A DNA stretch of 64,000 nucleotides from Limnohabitans sp. 2KL-17 (GTDB lineage: Bacteria > Pseudomonadota > Gammaproteobacteria > Burkholderiales > Burkholderiaceae_C), in assembly GCF_003063415.1 (NCBI RefSeq), contig NZ_NESK01000002.1:1-64000 (forward strand), in the 5' to 3' direction. The translations under genes and the position numbers were made by a program. The notes below the pieces were generated by a model that was not told the origin of the DNA, ran no database searches, and saw only the letters and a program-made list of their open reading frames with translations. Positions 8,973 through 44,647 of the stretch are shown piece by piece. How positions within the stretch are numbered: position 1 is the first letter of the stretch; each line of letters starts with the position of its first letter.

Positions 8973-9791
8973 TTATGGGTTGATGACTGCACCGGTCTTG
9001 CGAATGGCACCGATGTGGCCGCGCAGCTCGTGCACGATGTTGGTGAACTCGGGGGTGTAGGTGATCTCCAGATCGCGCGGGCGTGGCAGGTCGATCTCTT
9101 TTTTCACCACAAAGCGGCCGGGGCTCTTGCTCATCACATACACCGTGTCGGCCAGAAACACCGATTCGCGCAGGTCGTGCGTGACCAGGATGACGTTGAA
9201 CTTTTGCTCGGTCCAGAGGTCGCGCAAGATGCACCAGAGTTCTTCGCGCGTGAAGGCATCGAGCGCGCCAAAGGGCTCGTCGAGCAGCAGCATTTTGGGT
9301 TCGTGGATCAAGGCGCGGCAAATGCTGGCGCGTTGCTGCATGCCGCCCGACAGTTGCCAGGGGAACTTGTCTTCATACCCGGCCAGGCCCACGGTGCTCA
9401 GCAGTTTGCGGGCGCGCTCAGCGTACTCGGCCTTTTTTTGCTTGAAATTGGAGCGGTAGGGCTCGACGATTTCGAGGGGCAACAAGACGTTGTCAAGTGT
9501 GGTGCGCCAAGGCAACAGCGAGGATGCCTGAAACGCCATGCCGCTGATCTTGAGCGGGCCGGTGACGGGTTGGCCATCGACCAGGATGCGGCCTTTGCTG
9601 GGCATTTTCAGGCCGGTGGTCAACTTCATGAAGGTCGACTTGCCGCAGCCCGAAGGCCCGACGATGGCGATGAATTCGCCTTGCTTGACCTGCAGGTTGA
9701 TGTCTTCCACTGCAAAGTGGTTTTCCGCCAGCAACTCCTCGTTGTAGGCGAGCCAGACATTCTGAAAATCAACGAATGCGTCTTGGGACAT
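8973..9791 (-). CDS. ABC transporter ATPase, NitT/TauT (SsuB-like) type
   Basis: The 272-residue ATPase has Walker A GPSGCGKST, the signature LSGGMQQR, Walker B MLLLDEPFGALDAFT and the switch His in VTHD. The start at 9791 (MSQDAFVDF) is preferred because an upstream TGTATACA operator-like site (9821-9828) would otherwise fall inside the gene. It energises the permease that follows. A 158-nt gap separates it from the binding-protein gene, and that gap contains the operator-like site, so ATPase-permease-ureD may have their own promoter. Confidence 0.93.
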   Translation of the reverse strand: MSQDAFVDFQNVWLAYNEELLAENHFAVEDINLQVKQGEFIAIVGPSGCGKSTFMKLTTGLKMPSKGRILVDGQPVTGPLKISGMAFQASSLLPWRTTLDNVLLPLEIVEPYRSNFKQKKAEYAERARKLLSTVGLAGYEDKFPWQLSGGMQQRASICRALIHEPKMLLLDEPFGALDAFTREELWCILRDLWTEQKFNVILVTHDLRESVFLADTVYVMSKSPGRFVVKKEIDLPRPRDLEITYTPEFTNIVHELRGHIGAIRKTGAVINP

Positions 9792-9820
9792 GGTGTGAAC
9801 TTTGAAATGGTGTTCGAAAG

Positions 9821-9828
9821 TGTATACA
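9821..9828 (-). promoter_or_regulatory. TGTATACA operator-like site 1 (ABC ATPase/ureD)
   Basis: A palindromic TGTATACA lies 30 nt upstream of the ATPase start. Read with the gene it continues as TGTATACACTTTCG, close to the sites in front of uraH and puuD (TGTATACACTTCGG). It is the proposed binding site of the GntR-family protein encoded at 20279..20944. Confidence 0.6.
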
Positions 9829-9949
9829 GCTTGCGCTTTGCAAAAGCCCACTGGCGCAGGCTGCGTTGGAGTGGGCTGTTGGCAGGCCCGCAAGGGCCTT
9901 GGTTAGACAGGATGACCAACGCTCAGTGCGGGCTGGTCACCTGGTGGCT

Positions 9950-10984
9950 TTACTTCTTGGGCTTGGGCAGGATGTCCAGCTCTTTGGCCGAAGGCAGGAA
10001 CGAGCCGTTCCAGATGTCTTCGGACTTGACGCGGGTCTTGGTGTTGAAGGCATCGGACACTTGCGAGGCCATCAGTGTCATGCGGGGGCCGCTGATCTGG
10101 CCAAAGCCTTCGGCACGGGCCGATGGGCTGTTGATCACGGTGTCGATGGCCAGTTGCAGTCGGCGTGTTTCGAGTGCGGTGTTGATGATGCCGTCACGGG
10201 CCTTGACCGATTCAATGGCTTTGGCTGGGTTGGCGATCACGTCTTTGGCACCCTTGGTGAAGGCGCTCAGGAACGCTTTCACGGCAGCAGGGTTTTCTTT
10301 CAGGATTTTGGGCGAGGCGATGATCGCGTTGCCATAGAGCTTGACGCCAAAGTCAGGGTATTGCATGACCACCACGTCTTCGGCTTTCACGCCACGGGCT
10401 TCGATGTTGAGCAGCGAGGTGAAGGTGAAGCCGGTGATGGCATCGACATCGCCGCGCACCAGCATGGTTTCACGCAGCGGTGGGTCCATTGCGGTCCATG
10501 CCACGTTGCCGATGTCGTTGGCTTTCTGAAAAATCGGAAAGGCGCGGCGACCGGCGTCAAACACGGGTGCGCCCAGCTTTTTGCCTGCCAGGTCTGCGGG
10601 GGTCTTGATGCCGGATTTCTTGAGCGCCATGACCGAAGCCGGCGTGTTGTTGTAGACCATCATGATGGCCACAGGCTTGTTGGGTGCGTCGGGGTTGTTG
10701 GCGTGGAATTCCATCAGGGCAGCCAGATCGGCGAAGCCCAGGTCGTAGGTGCCAGAAGCCACACGCGTGACTGCGCCACCTGAGCCGTTGCCGGAGTCCA
10801 CCGTCACATCCAGCTTGGCGTCCTTGAAGTAGCCCTTTGCACCCGGCACAAGGAAGAAAGCAGCAGGGCCTTCAAAACGCCAATCCATCTGAAATTTGAT
10901 GGGGGTGGTTTGGGCTTGGGCTGTGCCAAATGCGGCAACAGCGGCCAACACGGCGGTGGCCTTGAGTAAAAAACGCTTGTTCAT
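9950..10984 (-). CDS. ABC transporter substrate-binding protein (NMT1/SsuA type)
   Basis: This 344-residue periplasmic binding protein has a signal peptide ending at AQAQ (about residue 25). The core has features of the NMT1/THI5-like family (FQMDWRFEGPAAFFLVPGAKGYFKDAKLDVTVDSG, GSGGAVTRVASGTYDLGFADLAAL). The start MNKRFLLKA at 10984 has a proper signal sequence; further upstream codons do not fit one. Family ligands are small N- or S-containing molecules such as pyrimidines or sulfonates. A perfect sigma-54 promoter lies about 40 nt upstream, so expression is probably tied to nitrogen shortage. A purine-breakdown or other nitrogenous ligand is the best guess. Confidence 0.9.
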   Translation of the reverse strand: MNKRFLLKATAVLAAVAAFGTAQAQTTPIKFQMDWRFEGPAAFFLVPGAKGYFKDAKLDVTVDSGNGSGGAVTRVASGTYDLGFADLAALMEFHANNPDAPNKPVAIMMVYNNTPASVMALKKSGIKTPADLAGKKLGAPVFDAGRRAFPIFQKANDIGNVAWTAMDPPLRETMLVRGDVDAITGFTFTSLLNIEARGVKAEDVVVMQYPDFGVKLYGNAIIASPKILKENPAAVKAFLSAFTKGAKDVIANPAKAIESVKARDGIINTALETRRLQLAIDTVINSPSARAEGFGQISGPRMTLMASQVSDAFNTKTRVKSEDIWNGSFLPSAKELDILPKPKK

Positions 10985-11022
10985 GGTGGGCTCCAGGGTC
11001 AGATAAACGGTCAATCTTGTCA

Positions 11023-11038
11023 AGCAAAATCGGTGCCA
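11023..11038 (-). promoter_or_regulatory. sigma-54 promoter of the ABC binding-protein gene
   Basis: The minus strand reads TGGCACCGATTTTGCT, a full match to TGGCAC-N5-TTGCT. It lies 39 nt upstream of the start codon at 10984, giving a short leader. This is the third sigma-54-type site in the first 11 kb and groups this transporter with urease under nitrogen control. Confidence 0.75.
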
Positions 11039-11176
11039 TTATCCAGCATGCTTTGGAGCGCCGGTGTCAGGTACATCCCCTAGAAACGCCCGTTTCGAGT
11101 GCCTCAATCGACAGTCGAATGCACCAAAATGGTGTGTTTGGGGCGGCCGCCCCACAGAGGGCGGCGCCAAGACACT

Positions 11177-13474
11177 TTAATGGTGGGCTTGCGCAACCGC
11201 CAGGGCGGTCATGTTCAGCACCCGGCGCACCGTGGCCGCAGGGGTCAGGATGTGCGCGGTGCGGGCTGCACCCATCAGGATGGGGCCCACCGTCACACCG
11301 CCACTGGTGGTGGTTTTCATGACGTTGTAGAGAATGTTGGCCGCGTCCAGGTTCGGGCACACCAGCAAGTTGGCCGCGCCAGTGAGCGAGCTGTCTTCCA
11401 GGTAAGCGCTGCGGATGTCGGGTTGCAAAGCCGCATCGCCATGCAGCTCTCCATCGCATTCGATGTCGGGGTGCTGCGCCACAAACAGGTCACGCGCCAG
11501 GCGCATCTTGCGGGCCGATGCGCGCTTGGACGAGCCGTAGCTCGAATGCGAGAGGAAGGCCACTTTGGGCACGATGCCAAAGCGCTTCACTTCTTGCGCC
11601 GCCATGTAAGCGATCTCGGCCAGCTGCTCGGCGCTGGGCTCTTCGTTGACGTAGGTGTCGGTGATGAAGAGCGGCCCCTGGTTGCTCATGATGGCATTCA
11701 CAGCGGCGTAATTGGCCACGCCAGTGCGCTTGCCCAAAATGCTGTCGATGCGTTCCAGGTGCGTCATGTAAGTGCCTGCCAGGCCGCAGATCATGGCGTC
11801 GGCATCGCCCAGCGAGACCATGAGTGAACCAATGATGGTGTTGGAGCGGCGCACGGCCGCTTTGGCTACAGCCGGTGTGGCGCCATCGCGTTTCATGAGC
11901 TGGTGGTAGTGCTCCCAGTACTGGCGAAAGCGGGCGTCTTCCTCGGGGTTGACGTTGTCCACATCCACCCCCAGGCGCATGCGCAGACCGGCTTTTTCGA
12001 TGCGCGCGGCAATCACGTTGGGGCGGCCGATCAGGATCGGGTGGGCCAGTTTTTCATCGATGGCCATCTGGGCCGCACGCAGCGCGCGCTCGTCTTCGCC
12101 GTCGGCATAGGCTACGCGCTTGGCGTTTTGGGGAACGGCTTTGGCGGCATTGAAGATGGGGCGCATCAGCAGACCGGTCTGCGTGACAAAGCTTTGCAGC
12201 TGCTGGCGGTAGGCGTCCATGTCGGTGATGGGCCGCGTGGCCACACCCGAATCGGCAGCGGCCTGGGCCACAGCGGGCGCGATGCGCAAAATCAGGCGCG
12301 AGTCAAAAGGCGTGGGGATCAGGTAGTCCCGGCCAAACGACAACTCTTTGCCCGCATAAGCGCTGGCCACTTCTTCGCTGATGTCGGCCTTGGCCAGATC
12401 GGCAATCTGGCGCACGCAAGCCAGCTTCATGGCCTCGGTGATCTTTGTCGCACCGCAGTCCAGGGCGCCCCGAAAGATGTAGGGGAAGCAAAGCACGTTG
12501 TTGACCTGGTTCGGGTAGTCCGAGCGGCCTGTGGCAATGATGCAGTCCGGGCGGGCGGCCTTGGCCAGTTCGGGCCGGATTTCGGGTTCGGGGTTGGCCA
12601 GGGCCAGGATGACCGGGTCGCGGGCCATGGTTTTGAGCATGTCCACCGTCATCACGCCGGGGGCCGAGCAGCCCAGGAACACATCGGCGCCGTTGACCGC
12701 ATCGGCCAGGCTGCGGGCCTCGGTCTTTTGGGCGTAGCGGGCTTTGGATTCGTCGTAACCGCCGGGGCGGCCTTCGTAGATCACGCCCTTGGAGTCGCAG
12801 ACAAAGATGTTGCTGGTCTTCACGCCCAGACCCACCATCACGTCGAGGCAGGCAATGGCCGCAGCGCCGGCGCCCGACACGGCCAGCTTGATGCTGCCGA
12901 TGTCTTTGCCCACCAGCTCCAGGCCGTTGAGCATGGCCGCAGATGCGATGATGGCGGTGCCATGCTGGTCGTCATGAAAGACCGGGATGTTCATGCGCTC
13001 GCGCAGCTTCTTTTCGATGTAAAAGCACTCGGGCGCCTTGATGTCTTCGAGGTTGATGCCGCCCAAAGTCGGCTCCATGGCGGCAATGATCTCGACCAGC
13101 TTGTCCGGGTCGCGCTCGGCCAGCTCGATGTCAAACACATCGATGCCCGCAAACTTCTTGAACAGGCAGCCCTTGCCCTCCATGACGGGCTTGGCCGCCA
13201 AGGGGCCAATGTCGCCCAGACCCAGCACGGCCGTGCCGTTGGTGATCACGGCCACCAGGTTGCCGCGCGAGGTGAATTCGTGTGCTTTGGACGGATCGGC
13301 GGCGATGTCCAAGCAGGGATAAGCCACACCTGGCGAGTAGGCCAGCGACAGATCGCGCTGGTTGGACAGGGGCTTGGTCGGGTTGACCGAAACCTTGCCG
13401 CGTGTGGGAAAGCGGTGGTAGTCACGGGCAGCGTCGCGCAAGGCTTGTTCTGCGGGGGAGATGTTGTCGCTCAT
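11177..13474 (-). CDS. maeB: NADP-dependent malic enzyme with phosphotransacetylase domain (MaeB)
   Basis: This 765-residue enzyme decarboxylates malate to pyruvate. The malic-enzyme half (to about residue 430) includes [13 protein letters not shown], the metal/substrate region [15 protein letters not shown] and a Rossmann motif [14 protein letters not shown]. The C-terminal half (about 430-765) resembles phosphotransacetylase and is usually a regulatory domain for acetyl-CoA or acetyl-phosphate. The start [10 protein letters not shown] at 13474 is the family start. It stands alone on the minus strand, separated from the purine permease by a terminator. It connects C4 acids, for example from glyoxylate assimilation, to pyruvate. 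Confidence 0.95.
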
Positions 13475-13568
13475 GGCTGTTGTCTCAATCAAGGAAAAAA
13501 CATAAAAGTTGACAAAGCGTAACCCATTTGTCTGCCGGTTCAAGCTGTGGATTACGTGCATAAAAAGC

Positions 13569-13597
13569 AAAAAGCCAAGCACTTGGCTTGGCTTTTT
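13569..13597 (-). terminator. intrinsic terminator after the purine permease
   Basis: There is a perfect 12-bp stem, AAAAAGCCAAGC (13569-13580) with GCTTGGCTTTTT (13586-13597), and loop ACTTG. It lies 38 nt after the permease stop on the minus strand and carries a T run on either strand. It isolates the permease from maeB. Confidence 0.85.
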
Positions 13598-13635
13598 CAG
13601 TCAAGGCCTGCGCCCCGATGTCGTTGGGGCAAAAC

Positions 13636-15123
13636 TCAATGCGCTTCGGCCTGCTTGGCAGCTTCGATCGCGTCGCGGTTGTCACCGTTGGCACCGTTGA
13701 AGAACAGGTTCAGAGTCACCGCAGTGATGGAGGCCAGCAAAATGCCGGACTCGATCAGCGGGTGCAGGCCGTGTGGCATCCACTGCTTGAAGTTGGGTGC
13801 GATCAGCGGGATCATGCCAATGCCAATCGAGACCGCGACGACGATGGCGTTGGAGCGGTTGTTCTTGAAGTCCACATTGCCCAGAATGCGAATGCCGGTG
13901 GTCGCCACCATGCCAAACATCACCAGACCCGCACCACCCAGCACCACGGTGGGCAGCGATTCGATCAAGGCGGCCATCTTGGGCAACAAGCCCAGCGCGA
14001 CCAGAATCAGGCCACCCGCCACGCACACAAATCGGCTCTTGACGCCAGTGACGGCCACCAAGCCCACGTTTTGCGAAAAGCTGGTGTAGGGGAAGGTGTT
14101 GAAAATGCCGCCAATCAGCGTGCCCAGGCCATCGGTGCGCAAACCGCGTGTCAGGGCCGCTTGGTCGACTTTCTTTTCGGTCATGTCGCCCAGTGCCAAA
14201 AACATGCCGGTGGATTCAATCATCACCACGATCATGACCAGGGTCATGGTCAAAATCAGCACTGGCTCGAAAATGGGCATGCCAAAGTGGAAAGGCATGA
14301 CCACATCAAACCAGGCGGCTTTGCCCACTTTGTCGAAGTTCATCAGGCCCATGGCCGTGGCCACCACGCCACCGATCACGATGCCCAAAAGCACGGAAAT
14401 GTTGGCCACAAAGCCCTTGGCAAAGCGCGCAATCACCAAGATCGACACCAGCACCAGCGCGGCAATGCCGACGCCTGTCAGTTCGGCGTATTTGGGGTTG
14501 GGCATTTTGGGCAAGAGCGCCAGGTCTTTGGGCATGGCGGGCAAGATGGAGCCCGGTGCGTTAGCGGCTGCGGCCGCGGCATCGAGCCATTGCTTGTGCT
14601 CAGGCGTGACGATGTTGTGCGCGGTGGGGCCAAACGGGTTGCCAAAAATCCAGTTGATGCCGATGCGCATCAGGCTGATGCCGATCACGGCAATGATGGT
14701 GCCGGTGACCACGGGCGGGAAAAAGCGCAGCATGCGGCTGACCAGCGGGGCGATCAGGATCGAGATGATGCCCGCCCCGATGATGGAGCCAAAGATCAGC
14801 TGCGCCCCCAATTCGCCCGGGTTGGCGTTGGCCATGGCCACCATGGGCGCCACGGAGGCAAAGGTCACGCCCATCATCACGGGCAGGCGAATGCCGAACC
14901 ACTGGGTGGCGCCCAGCGACTGGATCAAGGTAACCAGGCCGCAGCAAAACAGGTCGGCCGAAATCAGGTAAGCCACGTCTTGCGGGCTCAGCTTGAGGGC
15001 GCGGCCGACGATCAGGGGCACGGCCACAGCGCCGGCATACATCACCAGCACATGTTGCAGGCCCAAAGCGGCGAGCTTGCCCGTGGGCAGTTTCTCGTCC
15101 ACGGGGTGAATGGTTGAACTCAT
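13636..15123 (-). CDS. NCS2/NAT family purine (urate/xanthine) permease
   Basis: A 495-residue proton-coupled nucleobase transporter with about 14 hydrophobic segments. It carries the NAT signature QNVGLVAVTGVKSRFV, and the LGLQHVLVMYAGAVAVPLIVG opening and GTIIAVIGISLMRIGINW are typical of the xanthine/urate branch (XanQ, UacT). The start at 15123 follows a good AGGAG; an upstream in-frame codon would cover the operator region. A TGTATACA site lies 76 nt upstream, the same as at uraH and puuD. It should import urate or xanthine for the pathway encoded around it. Urate versus xanthine cannot be settled by eye. Confidence 0.93.
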   Translation of the reverse strand: MSSTIHPVDEKLPTGKLAALGLQHVLVMYAGAVAVPLIVGRALKLSPQDVAYLISADLFCCGLVTLIQSLGATQWFGIRLPVMMGVTFASVAPMVAMANANPGELGAQLIFGSIIGAGIISILIAPLVSRMLRFFPPVVTGTIIAVIGISLMRIGINWIFGNPFGPTAHNIVTPEHKQWLDAAAAAANAPGSILPAMPKDLALLPKMPNPKYAELTGVGIAALVLVSILVIARFAKGFVANISVLLGIVIGGVVATAMGLMNFDKVGKAAWFDVVMPFHFGMPIFEPVLILTMTLVMIVVMIESTGMFLALGDMTEKKVDQAALTRGLRTDGLGTLIGGIFNTFPYTSFSQNVGLVAVTGVKSRFVCVAGGLILVALGLLPKMAALIESLPTVVLGGAGLVMFGMVATTGIRILGNVDFKNNRSNAIVVAVSIGIGMIPLIAPNFKQWMPHGLHPLIESGILLASITAVTLNLFFNGANGDNRDAIEAAKQAEAH

Positions 15124-15198
15124 GGAGGACTCTCCTAGGTGATAAACGGTTGAGGAAACGCCAAAGAAACTAGATGTGTGCTTCTTTGTGTTCCAAAC

Positions 15199-15206
15199 TG
15201 TATACA
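15199..15206 (-). promoter_or_regulatory. TGTATACA operator-like site 2 (purine permease)
   Basis: A palindromic TGTATACA lies 76 nt upstream of the permease start. Read with the gene it is TTGTATACAGTTTGG, sharing the T-rich right flank of the other sites. It is part of the proposed GntR regulon. Confidence 0.65.
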
Positions 15207-15365
15207 AAAAATACGAGACCAACCTCGGTAATTACCCCAGTGCTCTCAAACACGCCATGGGTGCACCCAAAGTGATCAAGATCAAATTCAGCAATGGCAT
15301 GGGGGCCGATACTTGAACTGGTAGCCGTCGAAAACCTTTCGAGGTACCCAACACAAAGCTTTGTA

Positions 15366-16274: not shown

Positions 16275-17534
16275 TTAAGCTAACAAATCCAGCAGCGTGC
16301 GAGCCACCACTTTGGTGGCGCGCCGCAGGTCTTCCAGTTGCACATGCTCGTCGGCGCGTTTGGCGTTGGACTCGCGCACGCTGCGGGGGCCTGCGCCATA
16401 GATCACGCCCGGGATGCCGCGCTCCACGTACAGGCGCACATCGGTGTAGAGCGGGGTGCCCAGGGCCGGAATGGCTTCGCCAAAGACTTGCTCGCCGTGC
16501 TTTTGGATCGCATCGACCAGCGGCTGGTTGCCGGGCAGGGGCTTCATGGCGTTGGCCAGCAGCATGCGCCGGATATCCACCTTCAGTTGTTTGCCGCCGC
16601 GGGGCGGGTTAAAGCTTGCTACGGCGTATGCAATCGTTTTGCGTATGGAAGCCTCGACCTCGGCCGGGTTTTCTTCGGGGATCATGCGGCGGTCGAGTTT
16701 GAAGCTGACTTTGCCGGGCATCACGTTGGTGTTGTTGCCGCCTTCGATCAAGCCCACGTTCAGATACGGGTGGGTGATGCCCTCGATTTTGGAGGTGACT
16801 TTCAGGTATTGCGCGTTCAGCGCGTGCAGGGCGTTGAGGATATGGACAGCGCCTTGCAGCGCGTCGGTGCCGCTGTCGGGAATGGCGGCGTGGGCCATTT
16901 CTCCATTCACGGTCACTTCCATTTGCAGGCAGCCGTTGTGTGCAGTGACCACCTGGTAGCTGAAGCCGGCAGCGATCATGAGGTCGGGCTTGGTCAGGCC
17001 CTTGGCCAGCAGCCAGCCGGGGCCCATTTCGCCGCCAAACTCTTCGTCGTAGGTGAAGTGCAGTTCCACGCCACCCTTGAGCGGGGCCTTGAGTGATTCC
17101 AGCGCTCGGGTGGCAAAGGTGAAGGTGGAGAAGTCGCACTTGCTCACGGCGGTGGCGCGGCCGTACATGGCGCCGTTGTGGATCTCGCCGCCGTAGGGCG
17201 GGTGTGTCCAGCCTTCACCGGGCGGCACCACGTCGCCGTGGGCGTTCAGGGCAATGGTTTTGCCTTCGCCGTACTTGCGGCGCACGATCAGGTTGGTGAT
17301 GGTTTCCAGGCCGTAGGCTTTCACCTCTGATTCGGGCACAGGGTACTTTTCGGCCTCAAAGCCCATGGGCTTGAGCAACTCAGCGGTTCGCTCGGCGTGC
17401 GGGGCGTTGTTGCCGGGTGGGGTGTCGGTGGGCACCTGCACCAGGGCCTGCAAGAACTTGACCTGTTCATCAAAGTGCGCATCGATCCAGGCGTCGAGTT
17501 GTTGGTATTGGGCTTGGGCTTCGGTAGCGCTCAT
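16275..17534 (-). CDS. M20 family (ArgE/DapE-type) metallohydrolase of the ureide operon
   Basis: A 419-residue zinc-dependent amidohydrolase. Metal-site motifs are visible: NAHGDVVPP, the Asp of SKCDFSTF, and the catalytic/metal Glu pair in TYDEEFGGEMG. The dimerisation domain contains NGEMAHAAIPDSG. Its start overlaps the uraD-allC stop by four bases, so the two are translationally coupled in gntR-puuE-uraD/allC-M20. The family normally deacylates amino acids. Here coupling suggests a ureide intermediate, possibly ureidoglycolate or ureidoglycine, for which no other enzyme is evident in the window. That role is a hypothesis. Confidence 0.85.
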   Translation of the reverse strand: MSATEAQAQYQQLDAWIDAHFDEQVKFLQALVQVPTDTPPGNNAPHAERTAELLKPMGFEAEKYPVPESEVKAYGLETITNLIVRRKYGEGKTIALNAHGDVVPPGEGWTHPPYGGEIHNGAMYGRATAVSKCDFSTFTFATRALESLKAPLKGGVELHFTYDEEFGGEMGPGWLLAKGLTKPDLMIAAGFSYQVVTAHNGCLQMEVTVNGEMAHAAIPDSGTDALQGAVHILNALHALNAQYLKVTSKIEGITHPYLNVGLIEGGNNTNVMPGKVSFKLDRRMIPEENPAEVEASIRKTIAYAVASFNPPRGGKQLKVDIRRMLLANAMKPLPGNQPLVDAIQKHGEQVFGEAIPALGTPLYTDVRLYVERGIPGVIYGAGPRSVRESNAKRADEHVQLEDLRRATKVVARTLLDLLA

Positions 17535-19306
17535 GACAGTTCCTGAGAGAGTTGGTTCAAAACATGGGTGAAGGCGTCGACGCAAAGCTGCATGTCGTCG
17601 CTGGTGGTCGATTCGAGCGGGTTGTGGCTGATGCCTGCGTTTTCACCGCGCACAAACAGCATGGCCTGCGGCATGACTTCGTGCAATTTCATGGCGTCGT
17701 GGCCTGCACCGCTGGGCAGTTTGAACAGCGGCACGCCCAGGGCGGTCACGGCACGTTCCCAGCGCGCTTGCCATTCGGGGGCACTGGGCGCAGCGGCGGC
17801 GCTCATGGTCAGCTCGGCTTTCACGCGCACGCCGCGGCGCTCGGTAATGCGGTTCAGCTGGGCCATCACATCGGCCACCAGCGCATCGCGCTGTGCATCG
17901 GTGGGGGCGCGCATGTCCAGGCTGAACAAGCAGCGACCAGGCACCACATTGATCGAGCCATTGGGCACCTGCAGTTGGCCAATCGTCGCCACACTGTCGC
18001 CATCCTTGGAGGCGCGTTGCTCCATGTAGAGCGCCAGTTCGGCCACGGCGCAAGCCGCATCGCGGCGGCGGTCCATGGGGGTGGTGCCCGCGTGGCTGGC
18101 GGTGCCGATCACCTCGCACAGGTAGCGCACGCTGCCATTGATGGACGTCACCACGCCCAGCGGGATGTTCACTTCGTTCAGCACCGGGCCTTGTTCGATG
18201 TGCACTTCGACAAAGCCCAGATACTGTGCCGGGTCGCGCTGGATTTTGGGGATGTCATCCACACACAGCCCCGCATGCTGCATCGCGGCGCGCATGGTGA
18301 TGCCGTCGGCGTCTTGTTGGTCCAGCCAGGCGGGGTTGAACTGGCCAATGAGGGCACCAGAGCCCAGGAAGGTGGCCTTGTAGCGCTGGCCTTCTTCTTC
18401 GGAAAAGGCCACCACCTCGATGCCAAAAGGCAGGCGTTTGCCCTGCTGGTGCAACTGCTGCACACAGGCCATGGGCACAAAGATGCCCAGGCGCCCATCG
18501 TATTTGCCGCCATTGCGCACGCTGTCGTAGTGTGAGCCTGTGAGAAGGTATTGAGCACCGGTTTTGGCCGGGTGGTAACGCCCGACCACGTTGCCTACAG
18601 CGTCGATGTGCACCTCGTCAAAACCGCAGTCGTGCATGTTTTGGCTGATGCGTTGGGCGCAAGCACGGTGTGCATCGGTCAGATAGGTCACCGTGAGTTG
18701 CCCCAGCTCGGCAAAGCCGGGGTCAGAGTGTTGTGCCAGCTTTTCTTGCCAGTCCCAGACCTGCTGGCCCAGTGTGGGTTCTACGTCGAATTTGTCGTTC
18801 AGCCGGATTTCGACAATGCGGTGGATGTTGCGCAGACATTCGGCCAGCTCGAAATCGGGGTGACCGTTCAGGCGGCGCTCAAACGCGTCGATGATCTGCT
18901 GTTTGTTGTAGCCCAGGCCGCGCGGACCGCGCACCGCCAAGATGAAGGGCCAGCCGAACTTGGCGTTGTAGTCGGCGTTGAGCTTTTGGATCTTGGCAAA
19001 TTCTTCGGGTGTGCAATCGGTCAAGCCTGCCTTGGTTTGCTCGTTGGTGGATTCGGCCGTCAGCGTCTTGCTGACCATGGCCTTGCCCGCGAGTTCGGGG
19101 TGGGCGCGGATCAGGCCCAGCTGAGCGTCGCGCCCGGCATGTGCCAACACCTCACACATGGCGTGTTTGAGGTGGGCCAGCGATTGGAAAGGGCGCTCAC
19201 CCAGCGCCTTTTCGGCGATCCAGGGGGAGTGCTCGTAAAGACCATCCAGCATGTGCGCGGCATCGGCTTGCGATGCGCTGTTGAGTTGTTCCAATGTCAA
19301 TGGCAT
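17531..19306 (-). CDS. OHCU decarboxylase - allantoate amidohydrolase fusion (UraD-AllC)
   Basis: One 591-residue chain carries two steps of urate breakdown. Residues 1-170 form a UraD domain (2-oxo-4-hydroxy-4-carboxy-5-ureidoimidazoline decarboxylase) with the catalytic-His motif RAHPELAGK and PFILAVRG. Residues 180-591 form an M20-family allantoate amidohydrolase with GSHYDSV, KYDGRLGI, SEEEGQRY, HIEQGP and SGAGHDAMKL as metal and substrate motifs. The first acts before, and the second after, the allantoinase encoded just upstream (two-base gap). The M20 partner overlaps downstream. No frame break separates the domains, so the fusion is real in this sequence. Confidence 0.95.
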   Translation of the reverse strand: MPLTLEQLNSASQADAAHMLDGLYEHSPWIAEKALGERPFQSLAHLKHAMCEVLAHAGRDAQLGLIRAHPELAGKAMVSKTLTAESTNEQTKAGLTDCTPEEFAKIQKLNADYNAKFGWPFILAVRGPRGLGYNKQQIIDAFERRLNGHPDFELAECLRNIHRIVEIRLNDKFDVEPTLGQQVWDWQEKLAQHSDPGFAELGQLTVTYLTDAHRACAQRISQNMHDCGFDEVHIDAVGNVVGRYHPAKTGAQYLLTGSHYDSVRNGGKYDGRLGIFVPMACVQQLHQQGKRLPFGIEVVAFSEEEGQRYKATFLGSGALIGQFNPAWLDQQDADGITMRAAMQHAGLCVDDIPKIQRDPAQYLGFVEVHIEQGPVLNEVNIPLGVVTSINGSVRYLCEVIGTASHAGTTPMDRRRDAACAVAELALYMEQRASKDGDSVATIGQLQVPNGSINVVPGRCLFSLDMRAPTDAQRDALVADVMAQLNRITERRGVRVKAELTMSAAAAPSAPEWQARWERAVTALGVPLFKLPSGAGHDAMKLHEVMPQAMLFVRGENAGISHNPLESTTSDDMQLCVDAFTHVLNQLSQELS

Positions 19307-19308: not shown

Positions 19309-20259
19309 TTATTCCTTGAAGGGGTGCGTCGTCTTCCAGTGCCGGGCAATGTCGATGCGCCGTGCCACCCAGACCTTGTCGTGTGACTGGATGTGGTCCA
19401 AAAAGCGTTGCAGCGCGGTGATGCGGCCCGGGCGACCGAGCAGGCGGCAGTGCATGCCGATGCTCATCATCTTGGGGGCGTTGTCACCGTTGGGGTCACC
19501 CTCGGCATACAGCACATCAAAAGTGTCTTTCATGTACTGAAAGAAGGGGTCTGCGTGCGAGTAACCCTGAGGCAGTGCAAAGCGCATGTCGTTGCAGTCG
19601 AGCGTGTAGGGCACGATCAATTGAGGCGCCACCGTGCCGTCGGTCTTTTGGACCTTCATCCAAAAAGGCAGGTCGTCGCCGTAATAATCGCTGTCGTATT
19701 CAAAGCCGCCAAAGTCGGCCACCAGGCGGCGCGTGTTGGGGCTGTCGCGACCGGTGTACCAGCCCAGGGGCCGCTCGCCGGTGAGCTTTTGCAAAATGGC
19801 CATGGCTTCGGCCATGTGGGCGCGTTCGGTGGCTTCGTCAATGTGTTGGTAGTGGATCCACTTCAGGCCATGGCAGGCGATGTCGTGGCCCAGTTCTTTG
19901 AAGGCGGCGGTCACATCGTCGTGCTTTTGCAGCGCGGTGGCCACGCCAAAAACGGTGAGCGGCAGACCGCGTTTTTCAAATTCGCGCAGGATGCGCCACA
20001 CGCCAGCCCGCGAGCCGTATTCGTAAATGCCTTCCATGCTGATGTGCCGATCGGCAAAAGCGGGGGGGCTGAACATCTCAGACAAAAACTGCTCCGAACC
20101 CGCATCGCCATGCAGCACCGAGTTTTCGCCACCTTCTTCGTAGTTCAACACGAACTGCACGGCCACACGGGCACCGCCGGGCCACTGGGCGTGGGGTGGG
20201 TTGGGGCCGTAACCTTTCAGGTCACGGGGGTAGGGCAGGGTGGTGTCGTAGGTGCGCAT
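19309..20259 (-). CDS. puuE: allantoinase PuuE (polysaccharide-deacetylase fold, cofactor-independent type)
   Basis: A 316-residue enzyme that opens the allantoin ring to allantoate. It has the NodB-like fold with the PuuE signatures NYEEGGENSVLHGDA, EYGSRAGVWRI, CHGLKWIHYQ and GWYTGRDSPNTRRL. Size is standard for PuuE, and it is unrelated to the metal-dependent AllB. It follows gntR by 19 nt and precedes the uraD-allC fusion by two, so it is the second gene of the ureide operon. Confidence 0.95.
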   Translation of the reverse strand: MRTYDTTLPYPRDLKGYGPNPPHAQWPGGARVAVQFVLNYEEGGENSVLHGDAGSEQFLSEMFSPPAFADRHISMEGIYEYGSRAGVWRILREFEKRGLPLTVFGVATALQKHDDVTAAFKELGHDIACHGLKWIHYQHIDEATERAHMAEAMAILQKLTGERPLGWYTGRDSPNTRRLVADFGGFEYDSDYYGDDLPFWMKVQKTDGTVAPQLIVPYTLDCNDMRFALPQGYSHADPFFQYMKDTFDVLYAEGDPNGDNAPKMMSIGMHCRLLGRPGRITALQRFLDHIQSHDKVWVARRIDIARHWKTTHPFKE

Positions 20260-20278: not shown

Positions 20279-20944
20279 TCAGGACAAGGCCATGGCGATG
20301 TCTTGGGTGGGCACTTTGCGGTCGAAGGTCAGGCTGGCTTCAACATGAAGCAGGTGTTCGTGCATCAGGCGCACAGCCAGGTCAGAGTCTTTGGCTTCGA
20401 GCGCGGCCACGATCGTCACATGTTCGTCGGTGGAGTGTTCGGCCTCGTTGCGCGACTGGTACATCAGCGTGATCAGGGCGCAGCGCGAGATCAATTCACC
20501 CAGCACCTGGGCCAGCACATCGTTGTGCATGAGTTCGGCCATGCGCACATGGAAGTCGCCCAGCAACTCGGTGCGGCCTGTGATGTCGCCTTGTGTCACG
20601 GCTTCACGTTCTTGCTTGATGTGCTCCTTCAGTGCGGTGATTTGTTCGGGGGTGACCTGTTTTGCAAAGGCACGGGTCATCTCTGCCTCCAGCATTCGCC
20701 GCACGGCAAAAACCTGTTGGGCTTCCTCCACCGAGGGCGCGGCCACGAAGGCGCCTCGAGCGGGTTCCAGCCGGATCAGGCGGTTTTGTGACAATTGGAA
20801 CAAGGCTTGCCGCACCAGAGTGCGCGAAACACCAAAGTGATCGGCCAGCTTTTGCTCGGCCAACTTGGAGCCGGGCAAAAGTCGGTGCTCGACAATGGCG
20901 CGTGTGAGCGATTCGACGATGTGGTGCGTGGTGGAGGTTTCCAT
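20279..20944 (-). CDS. GntR-family (FCD domain) regulator of purine/ureide genes
   Basis: A 221-residue repressor-type protein. The N-terminal winged helix (about 1-70) contains LADHFGVSRTLVRQALFQL. The C-terminal FCD helical domain has the metal/ligand-binding His set in DFHVRMAEL, STDEHVTIV and LMHEHLLHVEAS. The gene heads the operon with puuE and uraD-allC and is divergent from uraH. A TGTATACA palindrome lies between the two starts and recurs upstream of three other purine-related genes, so autoregulation and pathway control are likely. The inducer is unknown; urate, HIU or allantoin are candidates. Confidence 0.92.
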   Translation of the reverse strand: METSTTHHIVESLTRAIVEHRLLPGSKLAEQKLADHFGVSRTLVRQALFQLSQNRLIRLEPARGAFVAAPSVEEAQQVFAVRRMLEAEMTRAFAKQVTPEQITALKEHIKQEREAVTQGDITGRTELLGDFHVRMAELMHNDVLAQVLGELISRCALITLMYQSRNEAEHSTDEHVTIVAALEAKDSDLAVRLMHEHLLHVEASLTFDRKVPTQDIAMALS

Positions 20945-22251: not shown

Positions 22252-23727
22252 ATGACCCAAGTCACCAACACTGTGCGCTTTGTGCTCGACGGCCAAATCG
22301 TCGAAGCCCAGGGCGAGCGCCGCACCACCACCGTTCTGGACTATCTGCGCGAGCAGTTGCACCGCACCGGGACCAAAGAGGGCTGCGCTGAGGGCGATTG
22401 CGGCGCTTGCGTGGTGATGGTGGGTGAGCTCAACGCCGCGGGCACCGGGGTGGACTATGTAGCCACTAACTCTTGCATCCAGTTGCTGCCTTCACTGGAC
22501 GGCAAATCGGTCAAGACGGTCGAGAGCCTGAAAAATGCCGATGGCAGCTTGCACCCGGTACAGGAAGAAATGATCAAGTGCCATGGCTCGCAGTGCGGCT
22601 TTTGCACCCCCGGCATCGTGATGAGCCTGGTGAACCTGGTTCAGGTTCTGCCCATGCCCAATCGCCAGCAGATCACCGACTCGCTCAGCGGCAACCTTTG
22701 CCGCTGCACAGGCTACAAGCCAATCATCGAATCGGCGACCAAGGCCTGTGCCAAGCCCGAAGCCCTCAAGCTGGACGACAGCGCCGATGTGCCGTTGCTC
22801 CAACAAATCAAGCGCTCCAGTGTGCCCACACTCAGCCTGGACGGCGACATCATCGTGCAACCGGTGGTACGCACCAAGAAGGGCAACGAATTCGTCTCGC
22901 CCGCCACCCTTGCCGAGGTGGCTGACTACCTGGTCAAGAACCCCAGCACCACGCTGCTGGCCGGCAGCACCGAAATCGGTCTGCAGGTGAACAAGCAGTT
23001 TGTGCGCCCTGACCACATCATGTATTTGGGCAATGTGGCCGAGCTGCGCCAGGTGACAGAAACCGCGATCAGCTGGCGCATTGGTGCTGCCGTGTCGCTG
23101 ACCACCACCGAGGCCTTGCTGGCCAAGGCCTACCCCGATTTTGTGGAAGTGCTGCGCCGCTTTGGCTCGCCCCCCATCCGGTCGACAGCCACTTTGGCGG
23201 GCAACATCGCCAACGGTTCGCCTATTGGCGACACCATGCCCTGCCTGATCGCCTTGGGGGCCACTTTGGTGCTGCGCCGGGGCGAAAAAACCCGCAAGGT
23301 CTTGTTGGAAAACTTTTACACCGGCATGAAGAAAACCGTGCTCGAAGCCGGTGAGTTCATCGAAGCCATTGAGTTGGCCAAGCCGGTGACAGGTCAGGTC
23401 TTTCGCGCCCACAAGGTGAGCAAGCGTTTTGAGCAAGACATCTCGGCCACCTGTGCGGCCATCAGCTACTCGCTCAAGGGTGGCAAGCTCAGCGGCGTGA
23501 AGTTGGCCTACAACGGCTTGGCTCCGTCGCCATGCCGCGCCCCCAAACTGGAGGCACTGCTGGAAGGCCAATTCCCTGTTGATGTGAAAGCGGCCGACCT
23601 GGATGCTGCCATTGCCGCCAGCTTCACGGCCCGCGACGGCCTGCGCGCCACCTGGGCCTACCGCGCTTTGGTCGCACGCAATCTGGTGCTTGAATTCATC
23701 GAAGAACAAACGAAAGAGGTGGCTTGA
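22252..23727 (+). CDS. xdhA: xanthine dehydrogenase small subunit (2x[2Fe-2S], FAD)
   Basis: A 491-residue subunit that carries electrons from the molybdenum site to NAD. The N-terminal ferredoxin domain has GCAEGDCGACVV; the second cluster domain has CHGSQCGFCTPG and NLCRCTGYKP (to about residue 165). An FAD domain (about 200-375, with LLAGSTEIGLQVNK and TLAGNIANGSPIGD) and a CO-dehydrogenase-flavoprotein C-terminal domain follow. All cluster cysteines are present. xdhB starts immediately after its stop, so the two are coupled. It oxidises hypoxanthine and xanthine to urate in the cytoplasm. Confidence 0.97.
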   Translation: MTQVTNTVRFVLDGQIVEAQGERRTTTVLDYLREQLHRTGTKEGCAEGDCGACVVMVGELNAAGTGVDYVATNSCIQLLPSLDGKSVKTVESLKNADGSLHPVQEEMIKCHGSQCGFCTPGIVMSLVNLVQVLPMPNRQQITDSLSGNLCRCTGYKPIIESATKACAKPEALKLDDSADVPLLQQIKRSSVPTLSLDGDIIVQPVVRTKKGNEFVSPATLAEVADYLVKNPSTTLLAGSTEIGLQVNKQFVRPDHIMYLGNVAELRQVTETAISWRIGAAVSLTTTEALLAKAYPDFVEVLRRFGSPPIRSTATLAGNIANGSPIGDTMPCLIALGATLVLRRGEKTRKVLLENFYTGMKKTVLEAGEFIEAIELAKPVTGQVFRAHKVSKRFEQDISATCAAISYSLKGGKLSGVKLAYNGLAPSPCRAPKLEALLEGQFPVDVKAADLDAAIAASFTARDGLRATWAYRALVARNLVLEFIEEQTKEVA

Positions 23728-26088
23728 ATGAACGCTCCTACCCCCATCAAAAACCTGTTGCCTGCATCGGGTGTTCAACAAGGCACTGACGTCGTGCACG
23801 AGTCGGCGCACCTGCACGTCACGGGCTCGGCCACTTACATCGACGACATCCCCGAGCACGCCGGAACCTTGTATGCCGCGCTGATTTTGTCGCCCGTGGC
23901 GCATGGTGAGTTGATCGGCGACGGCATTGACCGCGCTGCCATCTTGCGTGAGCACGGAGTGGTGGCGGTCTACACCGCCAAAGACATTCCCGGCGAAAAC
24001 AACTGCGGCCCCATCGTGCACGACGACCCTTTCTTGGCTGCAGGCAAGGTCGAGTTTGTGGGCCAAGCCGTGGCTGTGGTGGTGGCACGTGACATGCTCT
24101 ACGCCCGCGAAGCCGCGAAAAAAGCCAAGGTGCTGGTGAAAGAACTCAAGCCCATCTTGACGGTGGAAGAGGCGATGGAAGCCAACAGTTTCATCATGCC
24201 GCCCAAGGGCATCACCCGCGGCGATGCCGCAGCCGCCATTGCCAGCGCCCCGCATAAGATCAAGGGCACGACCCGTACCGGCCAACAAGAGCAGTTTTAT
24301 CTGGAAGGCCAGATCACCTATGCGGTGCCAAAAGAAGACGGTCAGCTCACGCTCTACGTGTCGACCCAGCACCCCGATGGCAACCAACGTGAAGCCGCAC
24401 ACGCCCTGAACCTGCACACCAACGATGTGGAGGTGATTTGCCGCCGCATGGGTGGCGGCTTTGGCGGCAAAGAAGGCAACGCCAGCATCTTCAGCCAGAG
24501 CGCTGCCTTGGCGGCGTTCAAGCTGCAAAAGCCCGTCAAGCTGCGCGTGAACCGCGACGACGACATGACGATCACCGGCAAGCGCCATGATTTCCGCATC
24601 GACTACGAAGTGGGCTTTGATGACAAGGGCCGCGTCCTGGGTGCGGACATCACGCTCATGTCGCGTTGCGGTTACAGCACCGATTACTCCGGCCCGGTGA
24701 ACGACCGCGCTTGCTTGCACATCGACAACACCTACCACATCCCGGCCCTGAAGCTGCTCAGCCACCGCTGCAAAACCAACACGCAAAGCGCGACCGCATT
24801 CCGTGGCTTTGGCGGCCCACAAGGCATGTTCGGCATCGAGACCGTGATGGACGAGATTGCGATGACTTTGGGCAAAGACCCATTGGAGGTGCGCAAGCTC
24901 AACCTTTACAAAGACCCGGCCATCAGTGGCACGCCCGACACCATGACCACCCAATACAAGCAGTTGATTGAAGACTGGGTGGGTGACAAAGTGATCGATC
25001 AGGTGGAACAAGAATCAAAGTACGCCGAGCGCCGCGCTGCCGTGCAGGCCTTCAATGCCCAAAGCAAAAGCCGCAAGCGGGGTTTGGCTCTCGTGCCCCT
25101 GAAGTTCGGCATCAGCTTTACCGCCACCCACCTGAACCAGGGCGGGGCGTTGTTGGTGATTTACATGGACGGCTCGGTCAGCTGCAACCACGGCGGCACC
25201 GAAATGGGCCAGGGCCTGAACACCAAGATGGCACAGGTTTGCGCTGACGGACTGGGCATCGGCGTCGACAAAGTGCGCATCACCGCGACCGACTCACAAA
25301 AAGTGCCTAACGCATCGGCCACCTCGGCGTCCAGCGGTGCCGACATCAACGGCGCGGCCATCATGAATGCCACTGCGCAGATGCGCGAGCGCCTGAAACC
25401 TGTGGCGGCCCGCATGCTCGGTTGCCAGCCTGAAGAGGTGAGTTTTTCCAACAGCGAACTGCACGGCGGTGGCAAGTCCGTCAAGTGGGCCGATGTGACT
25501 AAGCAAGCTTGGCTCGACCGCGTGGGCCTGAGCGTCACCGGCTTTTACATGACGCCAGAAATCAAATACGACTTCACCACCCTGAGCGGTCGTGCTTTCT
25601 ATTACTACTGCTACGGCGCTGCCGTGAGCGAAGTGGAAATCGACACCCGCACGGGCGAGTGGTGGCTCAAAGCCGTGGACATCGTGCACGACGTAGGCCG
25701 CAGCATCAACCCGGCATTGGACAAAGGCCAGATCGAAGGCGCGTATGTGCAAGGCATGGGCTGGCTCACCATGGAAGAATGCATCTGGGACAAAAAAGGC
25801 AAGTTGCTCACGCACGGCCCCAGCACCTACAAAATCCCGGTGGCGGGCGACATCCCCGAGCATTTCAAGGTGTCCTTGTTCGACAACATCAACCTCAAGC
25901 CCACGCCGTTCAACAGCAAGGCCACGGGCGAGCCCCCATTGATGTTGGGCCTGTCGGCCTTCTTCGCTTTGCGCGATGCGGTCGCCGCCAGTGCCAACCA
26001 CAAAGCCGTGGTTTACATGGATGCCCCGGCCACACCCGAACGCATTTTGATGGCCTGCGAAAAAGCCAAGGCCACTGCAGGGCTGTAA
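23728..26088 (+). CDS. xdhB: xanthine dehydrogenase molybdopterin subunit
   Basis: A 786-residue catalytic subunit that binds the molybdenum cofactor. Motifs include RRMGGGFGGKE, the substrate-Arg region ATAFRGFGGPQGMF and the catalytic-Glu region GEPPLMLGLSAFFALRDAV near the C-terminus. The start directly follows the xdhA stop. A strong hairpin lies 11 nt after the stop. The maturation factor XdhC is encoded 3.5 kb downstream. It gives urate for PuuD. Confidence 0.97.
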   Translation: MNAPTPIKNLLPASGVQQGTDVVHESAHLHVTGSATYIDDIPEHAGTLYAALILSPVAHGELIGDGIDRAAILREHGVVAVYTAKDIPGENNCGPIVHDDPFLAAGKVEFVGQAVAVVVARDMLYAREAAKKAKVLVKELKPILTVEEAMEANSFIMPPKGITRGDAAAAIASAPHKIKGTTRTGQQEQFYLEGQITYAVPKEDGQLTLYVSTQHPDGNQREAAHALNLHTNDVEVICRRMGGGFGGKEGNASIFSQSAALAAFKLQKPVKLRVNRDDDMTITGKRHDFRIDYEVGFDDKGRVLGADITLMSRCGYSTDYSGPVNDRACLHIDNTYHIPALKLLSHRCKTNTQSATAFRGFGGPQGMFGIETVMDEIAMTLGKDPLEVRKLNLYKDPAISGTPDTMTTQYKQLIEDWVGDKVIDQVEQESKYAERRAAVQAFNAQSKSRKRGLALVPLKFGISFTATHLNQGGALLVIYMDGSVSCNHGGTEMGQGLNTKMAQVCADGLGIGVDKVRITATDSQKVPNASATSASSGADINGAAIMNATAQMRERLKPVAARMLGCQPEEVSFSNSELHGGGKSVKWADVTKQAWLDRVGLSVTGFYMTPEIKYDFTTLSGRAFYYYCYGAAVSEVEIDTRTGEWWLKAVDIVHDVGRSINPALDKGQIEGAYVQGMGWLTMEECIWDKKGKLLTHGPSTYKIPVAGDIPEHFKVSLFDNINLKPTPFNSKATGEPPLMLGLSAFFALRDAVAASANHKAVVYMDAPATPERILMACEKAKATAGL

Positions 26089-34987: not shown

Positions 34988-36043
34988 TTACAAGGGTGAA
35001 GGTGCCGTGGTCTTGAACTTCTCAGCCCAAGGCAAGAGCATGGGCATGATGTTCGGGTAAAGGGCCACGCCTTGGCTGGCGCTGTCGGCCTTCAACTTCA
35101 AGCCCCTTTCACCCGGTGTGCGCACCCATCGGTCAGCCTGTGCAGGCCGCGAGGCATGGCATTGCCTCGATACCTCGACCATCTGCGTATTGAAATCGGA
35201 CAAGCCTGCAAAAGCCCGGGGATCGATGATCTGCAAAAACACAGTGGCGCCCCAACCTTCGGGTGCATCGGCACGGCCATGCCCCGCCAGGCCGCCCGTC
35301 AGGGCCTCGACCATCCAGCTCAGGCCATAGCCCTTGTGCCCTGAATCCATGCCCCCCAGCGGCAAGATCGTACCCTTGGGCTCATTGAATAAGACCGCCG
35401 GATCGCGGCTGGCATGGCCATGGCCATCCATCACCCACTCGGCAGGCAACAAGCCGCCTTCTTTTTGCAAACGGTTGGTCATGCCGTTGGTGGTGGACGA
35501 GGTGGACACGTCGATCAGCACGGGCAAGCCCGACGTGGGAATGCCCACCGAAACGGGGTTGGGCGTGAACACCGGGTCCAGCCCGCCAAAGGGCGCGATG
35601 CTGGCAGCGTTGGGGTCAGAGCAATGCAACAGCATCATCAAACCCTGCTCGGTGACCCGCTGGTGGTAGGCCGCCAGACAGGCAATGTGGTGACTGCGCC
35701 GGATGACCACGGTGCAGGTACCCTGAGTCTGGGCACGTTGCGAGGCCAGTTCAATGGCTTGCAACACCAGCCAGGGGCCAGGCAGACGCTGACCATCCCA
35801 GGTGACGGCAGCCGGGTGGTCAGACACCACCAGGGGATGACCCTCTTTGCGCATCTTGCCCGCTTCCAGTTCGGCCAGATAGGGCGCCAACAAGGCCAGG
35901 CCATGGGTGGTGTGCCCGAGCAAGTCGCCTTCCAGCAGCACATCGGCCACGGCATGGGCCTTGTCTGGCGGCAAGCCCGCTGATTGCAAAAGATGGTCGG
36001 CAAAAGCCAGAAGGTCGGGGGGGGCGTAGTTCATGGGCTTCAT
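34988..36043 (-). CDS. Ldh2/malate-lactate dehydrogenase family oxidoreductase
   Basis: A 351-residue NAD(P)-dependent enzyme of the family that includes malate, sulfolactate and ureidoglycolate (AllD) dehydrogenases. Motifs are GDLLGHTTHGLALL, RRSHHIACLAAYHQRV, TPNPVSVGIP and GGMDSGHKGYGLSWM. ATG at 36043 is chosen; 36046 and 36034 are also possible. It is convergent with tctA. Given the purine theme an AllD role (ureidoglycolate to oxalurate) is possible, but a 2-hydroxy acid imported by TctABC is equally likely. Confidence 0.85.
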   Translation of the reverse strand: MKPMNYAPPDLLAFADHLLQSAGLPPDKAHAVADVLLEGDLLGHTTHGLALLAPYLAELEAGKMRKEGHPLVVSDHPAAVTWDGQRLPGPWLVLQAIELASQRAQTQGTCTVVIRRSHHIACLAAYHQRVTEQGLMMLLHCSDPNAASIAPFGGLDPVFTPNPVSVGIPTSGLPVLIDVSTSSTTNGMTNRLQKEGGLLPAEWVMDGHGHASRDPAVLFNEPKGTILPLGGMDSGHKGYGLSWMVEALTGGLAGHGRADAPEGWGATVFLQIIDPRAFAGLSDFNTQMVEVSRQCHASRPAQADRWVRTPGERGLKLKADSASQGVALYPNIMPMLLPWAEKFKTTAPSPL

Positions 36044-42363: not shown

Positions 42364-42381
42364 ATGTACCGGAGCGCTGAG

Positions 42382-44640: not shown

Positions 44641-44647
44641 GGAAAAC

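Follow-up and report, generated by a model that had tools for sequence, protein, structure and literature searches.

The last step of purine breakdown by way of allantoate, at which ureidoglycine or ureidoglycolate is turned into glyoxylate, is served by more than one described enzyme. Behind the allantoate amidohydrolase AllC, which works alone in E. coli, the HpxJ/HpxW route consumes the AllC product by means of a ureidoglycine aminotransferase and an amidohydrolase. The lyase AllA is presented in PMC3793230 as a nickel-dependent cupin-type protein forming urea and glyoxylate, and the reaction of the ureidoglycolate amidohydrolase UAH as one forming ammonia and CO2; the same paper uses gene position as an argument against an earlier lyase assignment, and PMC4016543 describes another substitute for AllC, which was identified from its gene context and backed by assay. 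Here we analyse a stretch of 64,000 nucleotides from Limnohabitans sp. 2KL-17 (contig NZ_NESK01000002.1, positions 1–64,000; hereafter the window), in which the gene of an M20-fold protein overlaps that of a UraD-AllC fusion. This M20 protein is, to judge from its gene context, a strong candidate for the missing last step; the unexpected loss of its metal centre argues against plain hydrolysis.

Comparison with described systems

The fusion has a close described counterpart in PRK13799 (NF010373), a UraD/N-carbamoyl-L-amino acid hydrolase fusion in whose NCBI name the UraD half is called an “unknown domain”. Domain order and length are those of the window fusion: OHCU_decarbox occupies residues 9–170, the M20 match starts at residue 256, and residues 3–589 align with positions 3–589 of the 591-position NCBIfam model at 1054.5 bits, slightly below the curated cut-off of 1087, as for most family members. 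UraD and an AllC-type M20 domain are thus both present at full length in one chain, as a preliminary description of this DNA had stated, and the fusion is an already known family, which excludes it as the novelty of the locus. Its AllC half aligns with the N-carbamoyl-L-amino acid hydrolase 3n5f and with E. coli AllC (1z2l), and in these alignments retains the AllC-type motifs SHxD, YDG, EEEG, HIEQG and SHNP, which we take to hold the metal ligands; it also matches plant UAH (4pxb/4pxe) and NCBIfam models named allantoate amidohydrolase. An exchange of roles, with the M20 protein as the allantoate amidohydrolase and the AllC half as UAH, is not favoured, in view of the motifs and model matches just given for the AllC half.

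The M20 protein shares its fold and the HGD and DEE motifs with the ArgE/DapE enzymes of the M20A group (3pfo, 7uoi, DapE, ArgE) and scores just above the cut-off of TIGR01910, but the bridging Asp, a Glu ligand and the C-terminal His are replaced and invariant D134, N200 and R367 are added. With plant UAH (EC 3.5.1.116/3.5.3.19; 4pxb, 4pxe) it has an M20-like fold (Z 28.9) and the proposed metabolite in common; UAH, however, belongs to the hydantoinase/carbamoylase branch and is not matched by the M20 protein at E≤0.001, and the UAH-type structures stand lower in its structural list, where presence or rank decides nothing. AllA/DAL3 (PF04115) catalyses the very reaction proposed here (EC 4.3.2.3), yet its fold is unrelated and the M20 protein does not match PF04115. 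5-Nitroanthranilate aminohydrolase (5k8m–5k8p) is an M20-fold enzyme with non-peptidase chemistry (Z 38.5); it differs in its aromatic substrate, and sequence identity is about 20%. HpxJ and HpxW are members of other protein families than M20.

An M20 fold with a dismantled metal site

PF01546 and PF07687 are the only domains of the M20 protein, which has the fold with catalytic and dimerisation domains. Its AlphaFold2 model predicts the full fold (predicted local distance difference test score 89.4, predicted template modelling score 0.87) and matches 3pfo with a Z-score of 40.6 over 400 residues and, by Foldseek, 7uoi with an E-value of 5e-29; sequence searches likewise group the protein with ArgE/DapE enzymes. 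The five-ligand di-metal centre (His, bridging Asp, Glu, Glu, His) is nevertheless incomplete. H99, D101, E164, E165 and H215 are retained, and V130 stands for the bridging Asp, A189 for a Glu ligand and K392 for the C-terminal His, which leaves H99 and E165 of the five; the ligand labels of H99, V130, E165, A189 and K392 follow what we take to be the canonical M20 positions.

The first two replacements run through the family and the third is found in most of its members, as seen in an alignment of 162 family rows (locus duplicates included), corresponding to 136 distinct sequences, with three canonical paralogues. His99 and Glu165 occur in all 162 rows; the bridging position is Val in 161 and Thr in 1, the second Glu is replaced by Ala in 158 and by Pro in 4, and the C-terminal position is Lys in 137 and His in 25. 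Counted over distinct sequences, Val stands against Thr at 135 to 1, Ala against Pro at 134 to 2 and Lys against His at 118 to 18. All five ligands are present in the three paralogues, and an alignment of the M20 protein with solved enzymes displays the same replacements. The catalytic Glu164 and the aspartate of the HxD motif, D101, are found in 136/136 distinct sequences; His215 and many further residues are also invariant, as are D134, N200 and R367, which differ in the canonical paralogues. The tree places the window among 39 rows with Lys, which make up a single supported group (100/99), and the His variants fall outside it, so that the exchange at position 392 looks like a single change.

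Comparison of five gene pairs gave nonsynonymous divergence (dN) of 0.04–0.14 against synonymous divergence (dS) of 0.47–0.93, i.e. purifying selection. Since the fold is predicted to be intact and the gene is under such selection, we read the M20 protein as functional, its active site having been rebuilt; a decaying pseudogene is ruled out by dN well below dS and by the conserved residues. A search among phages returned only distant matches of 25–26% identity, in six records named as Listeria and Enterococcus phage. The preliminary description, which had overlooked the ligand loss, proposed the M20 protein as the positional candidate for a ureidoglycolate/ureidoglycine hydrolase. The loss of the canonical ligands makes the second half of that label doubtful: because two of them, and here three, are gone, a di-metal analogue of UAH would not be the first choice, and urea elimination or deamination appears at least as likely. 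The positional half, in contrast, has gained from the co-occurrence, the unfused and alphaproteobacterial gene pairs and the frequent lack of AllA described below.

Association of the M20 and AllC genes

Co-occurrence was assessed in samples of 60 genomes from the genus, 150 from the family, 150 from the order and 281 from the class, with thresholds in the family sample of E≤1e-60 for M20 and E≤1e-100 for the fusion; all Fisher tests given are uncorrected for kinship. Genomes and loci are cited by our own numbers (G and L), genera by g. An M20 match at E≤1e-179 was obtained in 57 of the 60 genus genomes, those of G037, G040 and G045 being weak or partial. Across the family, 126 of 150 genomes have M20 and 128 the fusion; both occur together in 126, neither in 22 and M20 by itself in none (p 2e-24). 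The curated PRK13799 cut-off is exceeded in 10 of these 150 genomes. The two genomes with the fusion only are G152, whose contig ends inside AllC, and G065. Four genera (g20, g28, g29, g41) contain, among their sampled genomes, one that carries the pair and one that lacks both; the two genes therefore come and go together. In the order sample M20 occurs in 23 genomes, AllC or the fusion in 28 and both in 22, which means AllC in 22/23 M20 genomes versus 6/127 of those lacking M20 (p 6e-20); in G334, one of these six, the contig ends inside AllC. The class sample has M20 in 3 of 281 genomes, all of the window's own family. On plasmids the gene turned up in 36 records, 35 with less than 60% identity, from Azospirillum, Roseomonas, Aminobacter, Tistrella and some Burkholderiales. 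As a separate observation, G065 (locus L172) has no AllA in the genome and no PuuE within the fetched stretch.

The position of the fusion relative to M20 was read at 100 loci, of which 20 are genus loci, the window's own copy included, and 80 come from named records. Neighbouring genes at high-GC loci were read by tblastn panels and a codon guanine-cytosine filter; for Caballeronia, Variovorax, B. cenocepacia and A. brasilense the plasmid records have no annotated features in the stretch concerned. Named loci closest to the window are Limnohabitans and Comamonadaceae records. The fusion lies directly upstream of M20 in 96 of the 100 loci, and the arrangement is therefore not one of chance; at L062 the fusion match ends 517 bases from M20. 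The M20 open reading frame of the window, as listed, begins upstream at TTG 17585, and the junction with the fusion reads ...CTGTCATGAGCG, with an ATGA overlap of the four bases that had been noted before for this ArgE/DapE-type gene. An in-frame start giving a 4-base overlap is available in 37 of the 78 named loci that have both genes on the same strand.

Outside the family, M20 is paired with an unfused AllC (L156, L158, L159, L162, L163, L165, L168–L171), mostly in the vicinity of PuuE or of other genes for purine or glyoxylate metabolism; with the panel used, neither was detected in the stretches of L158 and L168, save a GntR match in L158. AllC-M20 pairs are carried by Azospirillum and Roseomonas plasmids, and on an Aminobacter plasmid the row consists of a racemase, PuuE, AllC and M20, followed by urea transport and urease genes. 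M20 is encoded away from AllC in G213. In G149 (L186/L187) PuuE-UraD-AllC is located on a different contig from M20, and there is no PuuE near L186.

The purine gene set of the window and its gap

The M20 gene closes a minus-strand row of four genes, in the order GntR/FCD regulator, PuuE, UraD-AllC fusion and M20 protein (Table 1), so that the allantoinase is indeed encoded next door, as originally described; the urease and the glyoxylate route mentioned there are likewise in place. Candidate genes for all other steps from xanthine to glycerate are found in the window. Provided that AllC delivers ureidoglycine, the conversion of ureidoglycine/ureidoglycolate to glyoxylate appears to be the sole step lacking a recognised gene, HpxJ/PucG-type class-V aminotransferases not having been searched genome-wide; in the scanned parts of the window no HpxJ/HpxW route was found. 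The window's own genome (completeness 100) gave no match to AllA (PF04115), allantoicase or the UGHY-type cupin (TIGR03214) and no second strong AllC/UAH-like paralogue, the only PRK13799-type match at E≤1e-100 being a single one. The absence of AllA and UAH genes noted in the preliminary description thus extends to the entire genome, and an allA gene elsewhere, which it had named as evidence against its own proposal, does not turn up in the search it suggested.

Table 1. Positions of the purine-breakdown genes and associated features in the window
Feature	Position	Strand	Evidence
M20-fold protein, ArgE/DapE-type by sequence, 419 amino acids from ATG	16275-17534	-	TIGR01910 218.5 bits, cut-off 217.6
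Overlap of fusion stop and M20 start, 4 bases ATGA	17531-17534	-	read from sequence
UraD-AllC fusion, 591 amino acids	17531-19306	-	PF09349 and PF01546; PRK13799 1054.5 bits, full length
PuuE allantoinase	19309-20259	-	TIGR03212 504.6 bits, cut-off 424.6; adjoins fusion
GntR/FCD regulator, head of gene set	20279-20944	-	PF00392, PF07729; same order in related loci
HIU hydrolase (UraH), 117 amino acids	21118-21471	+	tblastn 44% identity, 1.2e-28, to PF00576 protein of L142
XdhA-XdhB xanthine dehydrogenase	22252-26088	+	TIGR02963, TIGR02965 above cut-off
PuuD-type membrane urate oxidase	30541-31758	+	PF06181 410 bits
NCS2 xanthine/purine permease	13636-15222	-	TIGR03173 518.5 bits
Urease alpha (UreC), open reading frame of 572 amino acids	2461-4179	-	PF00449 match at 3808-4173, 5.9e-53
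Glyoxylate route: Gcl, Hyi, GlxR, glycerate kinase-type	56565-61520	+	PRK11269, TIGR03234, TIGR01505 above cut-off; glycerate 2-kinase match under cut-off
8-Oxoguanine deaminase family	54002-55405	-	PRK08203 682.7 bits, cut-off 532

Three further groups of genes in the window were recorded. SsuA/NMT1-type ATP-binding cassette (ABC) transporter genes for a substrate-binding protein and an ATPase lie at 8973-11023 (-); the substrate-binding protein recurs near purine genes in many Comamonadaceae loci, and the transporter is possibly a ureide or nucleobase importer. A protein of the malate/lactate/ureidoglycolate dehydrogenase superfamily at 34988-36073 (-) reaches 89.4 bits against an AllD cut-off of 496 and adjoins TctA and TctC genes. 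A row reminiscent of zinc shortage extends over 40938-53327, with ZigA-type and CobW/YjiA-type GTPases, a TonB receptor, siderophore-type ABC genes, DUF1826, a FolE2-type GTP cyclohydrolase, an AstE-like gene and a ZIP transporter.

Other enzymes for the last step in related genomes

PF04115 is matched in 28 of the 150 family genomes, 26 of them with the fusion, seven of the matches being weak (E 1e-12 to 1e-7); AllA is missing from 102 of the 128 fusion genomes. The order sample has AllA in 17 genomes and allantoicase in 10, all 10 of which have AllA as well; AllA is absent from 15 of the 22 in which AllC and M20 occur together. A UGHY-type bicupin above cut-off occurs in 0 of the 150 order genomes, with weak matches in 29. 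Inspection of 10 PF04115 neighbourhoods (L141, L142, L145–L152) out of the 28 genomes with a match did not recommend the AllA genes of the relatives as a working last step, as a purine cluster was seen only at L142, and there together with allantoicase. That locus belongs to G164, a genome of the same family that has neither AllC nor M20 and whose purine cluster comprises PuuD, HIUase, allantoicase, AllA, NCS2, PuuE and UraD. At L151 the PF04115 gene stands beside a 35% AllC-like match and at L152 beside a racemase-like match; the weak PF04115 matches of L147 and L148 were not seen by tblastn. AllA-like genes away from purine clusters were observed in the family at L141, L149 and other loci, the L141 copy adjoining an enoyl-CoA hydratase gene.

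A different arrangement is present at L192 (G264), where M20 is absent and the cluster contains PuuE and AllC; a class-V aminotransferase gene and a gamma-glutamyltranspeptidase-like gene, both identified by family-level matches only, flank AllC in what we take to be an HpxJ/HpxW-like layout. AllC-PuuE purine clusters lacking M20 also occur at L188–L191 (G212, G218, G262, G331), which with G264 and G334 make up the six order genomes that have AllC but no M20. Scanned neighbours are, at L188, a dipeptide-type ABC transporter and, at L189, an arylmalonate decarboxylase-like gene together with a hydantoinase A/B fusion, and by their sequence matches they name no route; L188–L191, with the hydantoinase A/B fusion of L189, may possibly represent yet another way of completing the last step.

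Strong urease matches (E<1e-40) were obtained in 20 of the 23 M20 genomes of the order sample versus 39 of the 127 others (p 5e-7).

Discussion

From the gene association and the altered active site we infer a substrate, a reaction and a metal independence for the M20 protein. AllC would release ureidoglycine, which decays to ureidoglycolate; both compounds have a carbon that bears a urea nitrogen plus NH2 or OH. The M20 protein, encoded directly after AllC, would convert ureidoglycolate, or its precursor ureidoglycine, to glyoxylate and thereby do the job performed elsewhere by AllA after allantoicase or by HpxJ/HpxW-type genes after AllC. For a bond of this kind acid-base catalysis can suffice, and a site that keeps Glu164, His215 and a Lys without a metal bridge fits an acid-base cleavage of the hemiaminal C-N bond better than a metal-hydroxide hydrolysis; the products would be urea and glyoxylate (or its imine), and the urea could be opened by the urease encoded in the window. 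The parts of this scenario differ in strength. The M20 protein probably acts on the AllC product, and the balance tips slightly towards its making glyoxylate from it by whichever chemistry, a UAH-type reaction included. Granted an action on the AllC product, urea elimination would be a serious prospect that nevertheless falls short of an even chance, UAH-type ammonia release would be rather unlikely, ureidoglycine deamination unlikely and some other reaction quite improbable. Taken alone, urea elimination by the M20 protein is a tentative proposal with the weight of expectation against it. Hardly as strong is the wider suggestion that an ArgE/DapE-fold clade without a di-metal centre, and with Lys for the last His, might constitute a metal-independent ureidoglycolate/ureidoglycine urea-lyase, unrelated to the other last-step solutions, in most Comamonadaceae and several other Proteobacteria. 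Among the top-ranked open-access papers listed for this gap, none was seen to assign this M20 family.

A number of observations weigh against this scenario. At L008, L069 and L088 M20 is kept with no fusion found upstream, at L186 of G149 no AllC adjoins it, and G313 has M20 without an AllC match at E≤1e-100; there an M20 copy of the AllC-less type occurs together with allantoicase and AllA. Conversely, the AllC purine clusters of L188–L192 have no M20 in the fetched stretch, nor do their genomes at E≤1e-60, and AllC therefore does not require M20. A PF04115 gene is also present in 26/128 fusion genomes, and in the order sample allantoicase and M20 overlap no less than by chance (Fisher p=1), for which reason their mutual exclusion was dropped as a statistical argument. 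Three of the 23 M20 genomes (G162, G326, G346) lack strong urease, and the link between M20 and urease may reflect kinship. The invariant Asp134, absent in the canonical paralogues, could serve as a relocated metal ligand. Finally, seven relatives at 50–53% identity (L143, L144, L164, L176, L178–L180), which form one tree group (85/83), lack AllC in the flanks that were fetched, yet share the Val and Ala changes, with His kept at 392. Loss of the first two ligands is therefore not tied to AllC alone, which limits how far a ureide role may be read from ligand loss by itself. At one of them, L176 on a Burkholderia aenigmatica plasmid, the M20 relative forms a row with an amidohydrolase and an Asp/Glu/hydantoin racemase (10467-14062), and a CN hydrolase is also among its neighbours.

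The argument from genomic position serves equally well for a UAH-like enzyme, which would hydrolyse the ureido bond and release two ammonia and CO2 at a mononuclear or rebuilt metal site composed of H99, E165, D134 and, in basal members, H392. H99 and E165 are indeed invariant, His occupies position 392 in 18 of the 136 distinct members, and D134, conserved throughout the family, is missing from the three canonical paralogues. The bridging Asp and the Glu ligand are, however, lost throughout and the last His is a Lys in the window, whereas the alignment of the AllC half with E. coli AllC covers the customary motifs; nor did the PDB yield a sequence match between the M20 protein and plant UAH at E≤0.001. 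As UAH-type ammonia release needs no urease, the observed enrichment of urease also speaks against this reading, which we consider rather improbable. Somewhat less probable still is a ureidoglycine aminohydrolase that would deaminate ureidoglycine to ureidoglycolate in place of the UGHY cupin, the last step being left to another enzyme or to a slow spontaneous reaction. The lack of a UGHY-type cupin above cut-off in all 150 order genomes agrees with it, and one of the best structural matches is the M20-fold 5-nitroanthranilate aminohydrolase (whole-protein E 4.5e-6), which similarly shows no His at the canonical place, although its C-terminal alignment is weak (E 0.014). Such an activity would leave the AllA-less genomes without a final step, and ureidoglycine is a labile compound that decays by itself, being called thermally unstable in PMC4016543.

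An accessory function, in which the M20 protein would act on a different ureido or amide compound while an enzyme not yet recognised, for example a class-V aminotransferase encoded elsewhere, completes the pathway, is about as improbable as the aminohydrolase. It draws on the surroundings of the AllC-less relative at L176 and on the absence of a genome-wide search for the aminotransferase route; the near-absolute co-occurrence with AllC in the family sample and the recurrence of the AllC-M20 pair on alphaproteobacterial plasmids speak against it. Tight coupling combined with the loss of catalytic ligands might even suggest a non-catalytic partner, a metal-stripped M20 protein that would join AllC or the fusion in a complex, with a tuning or channelling effect on it. 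The invariance of Glu164, His215 and many other residues, the separation of M20 from AllC in G213 and G149, the missing AllC match in G313 and the independence of E. coli AllC from any partner make this a very improbable outcome.

If the M20 protein performs the last step, the pathway gap would be closed in most of the family genomes examined, given the 102 of 128 fusion genomes without AllA, and a set of proteins that currently bear the names “ArgE/DapE family deacylase” or “M20/M25/M40 family metallo-hydrolase” would have to be renamed. The conserved ligand loss in an intact and strongly conserved M20 fold offers a clean test case for the transition of a metallohydrolase to another chemistry, and the answer decides whether the purine nitrogen is released as urea or as ammonia.

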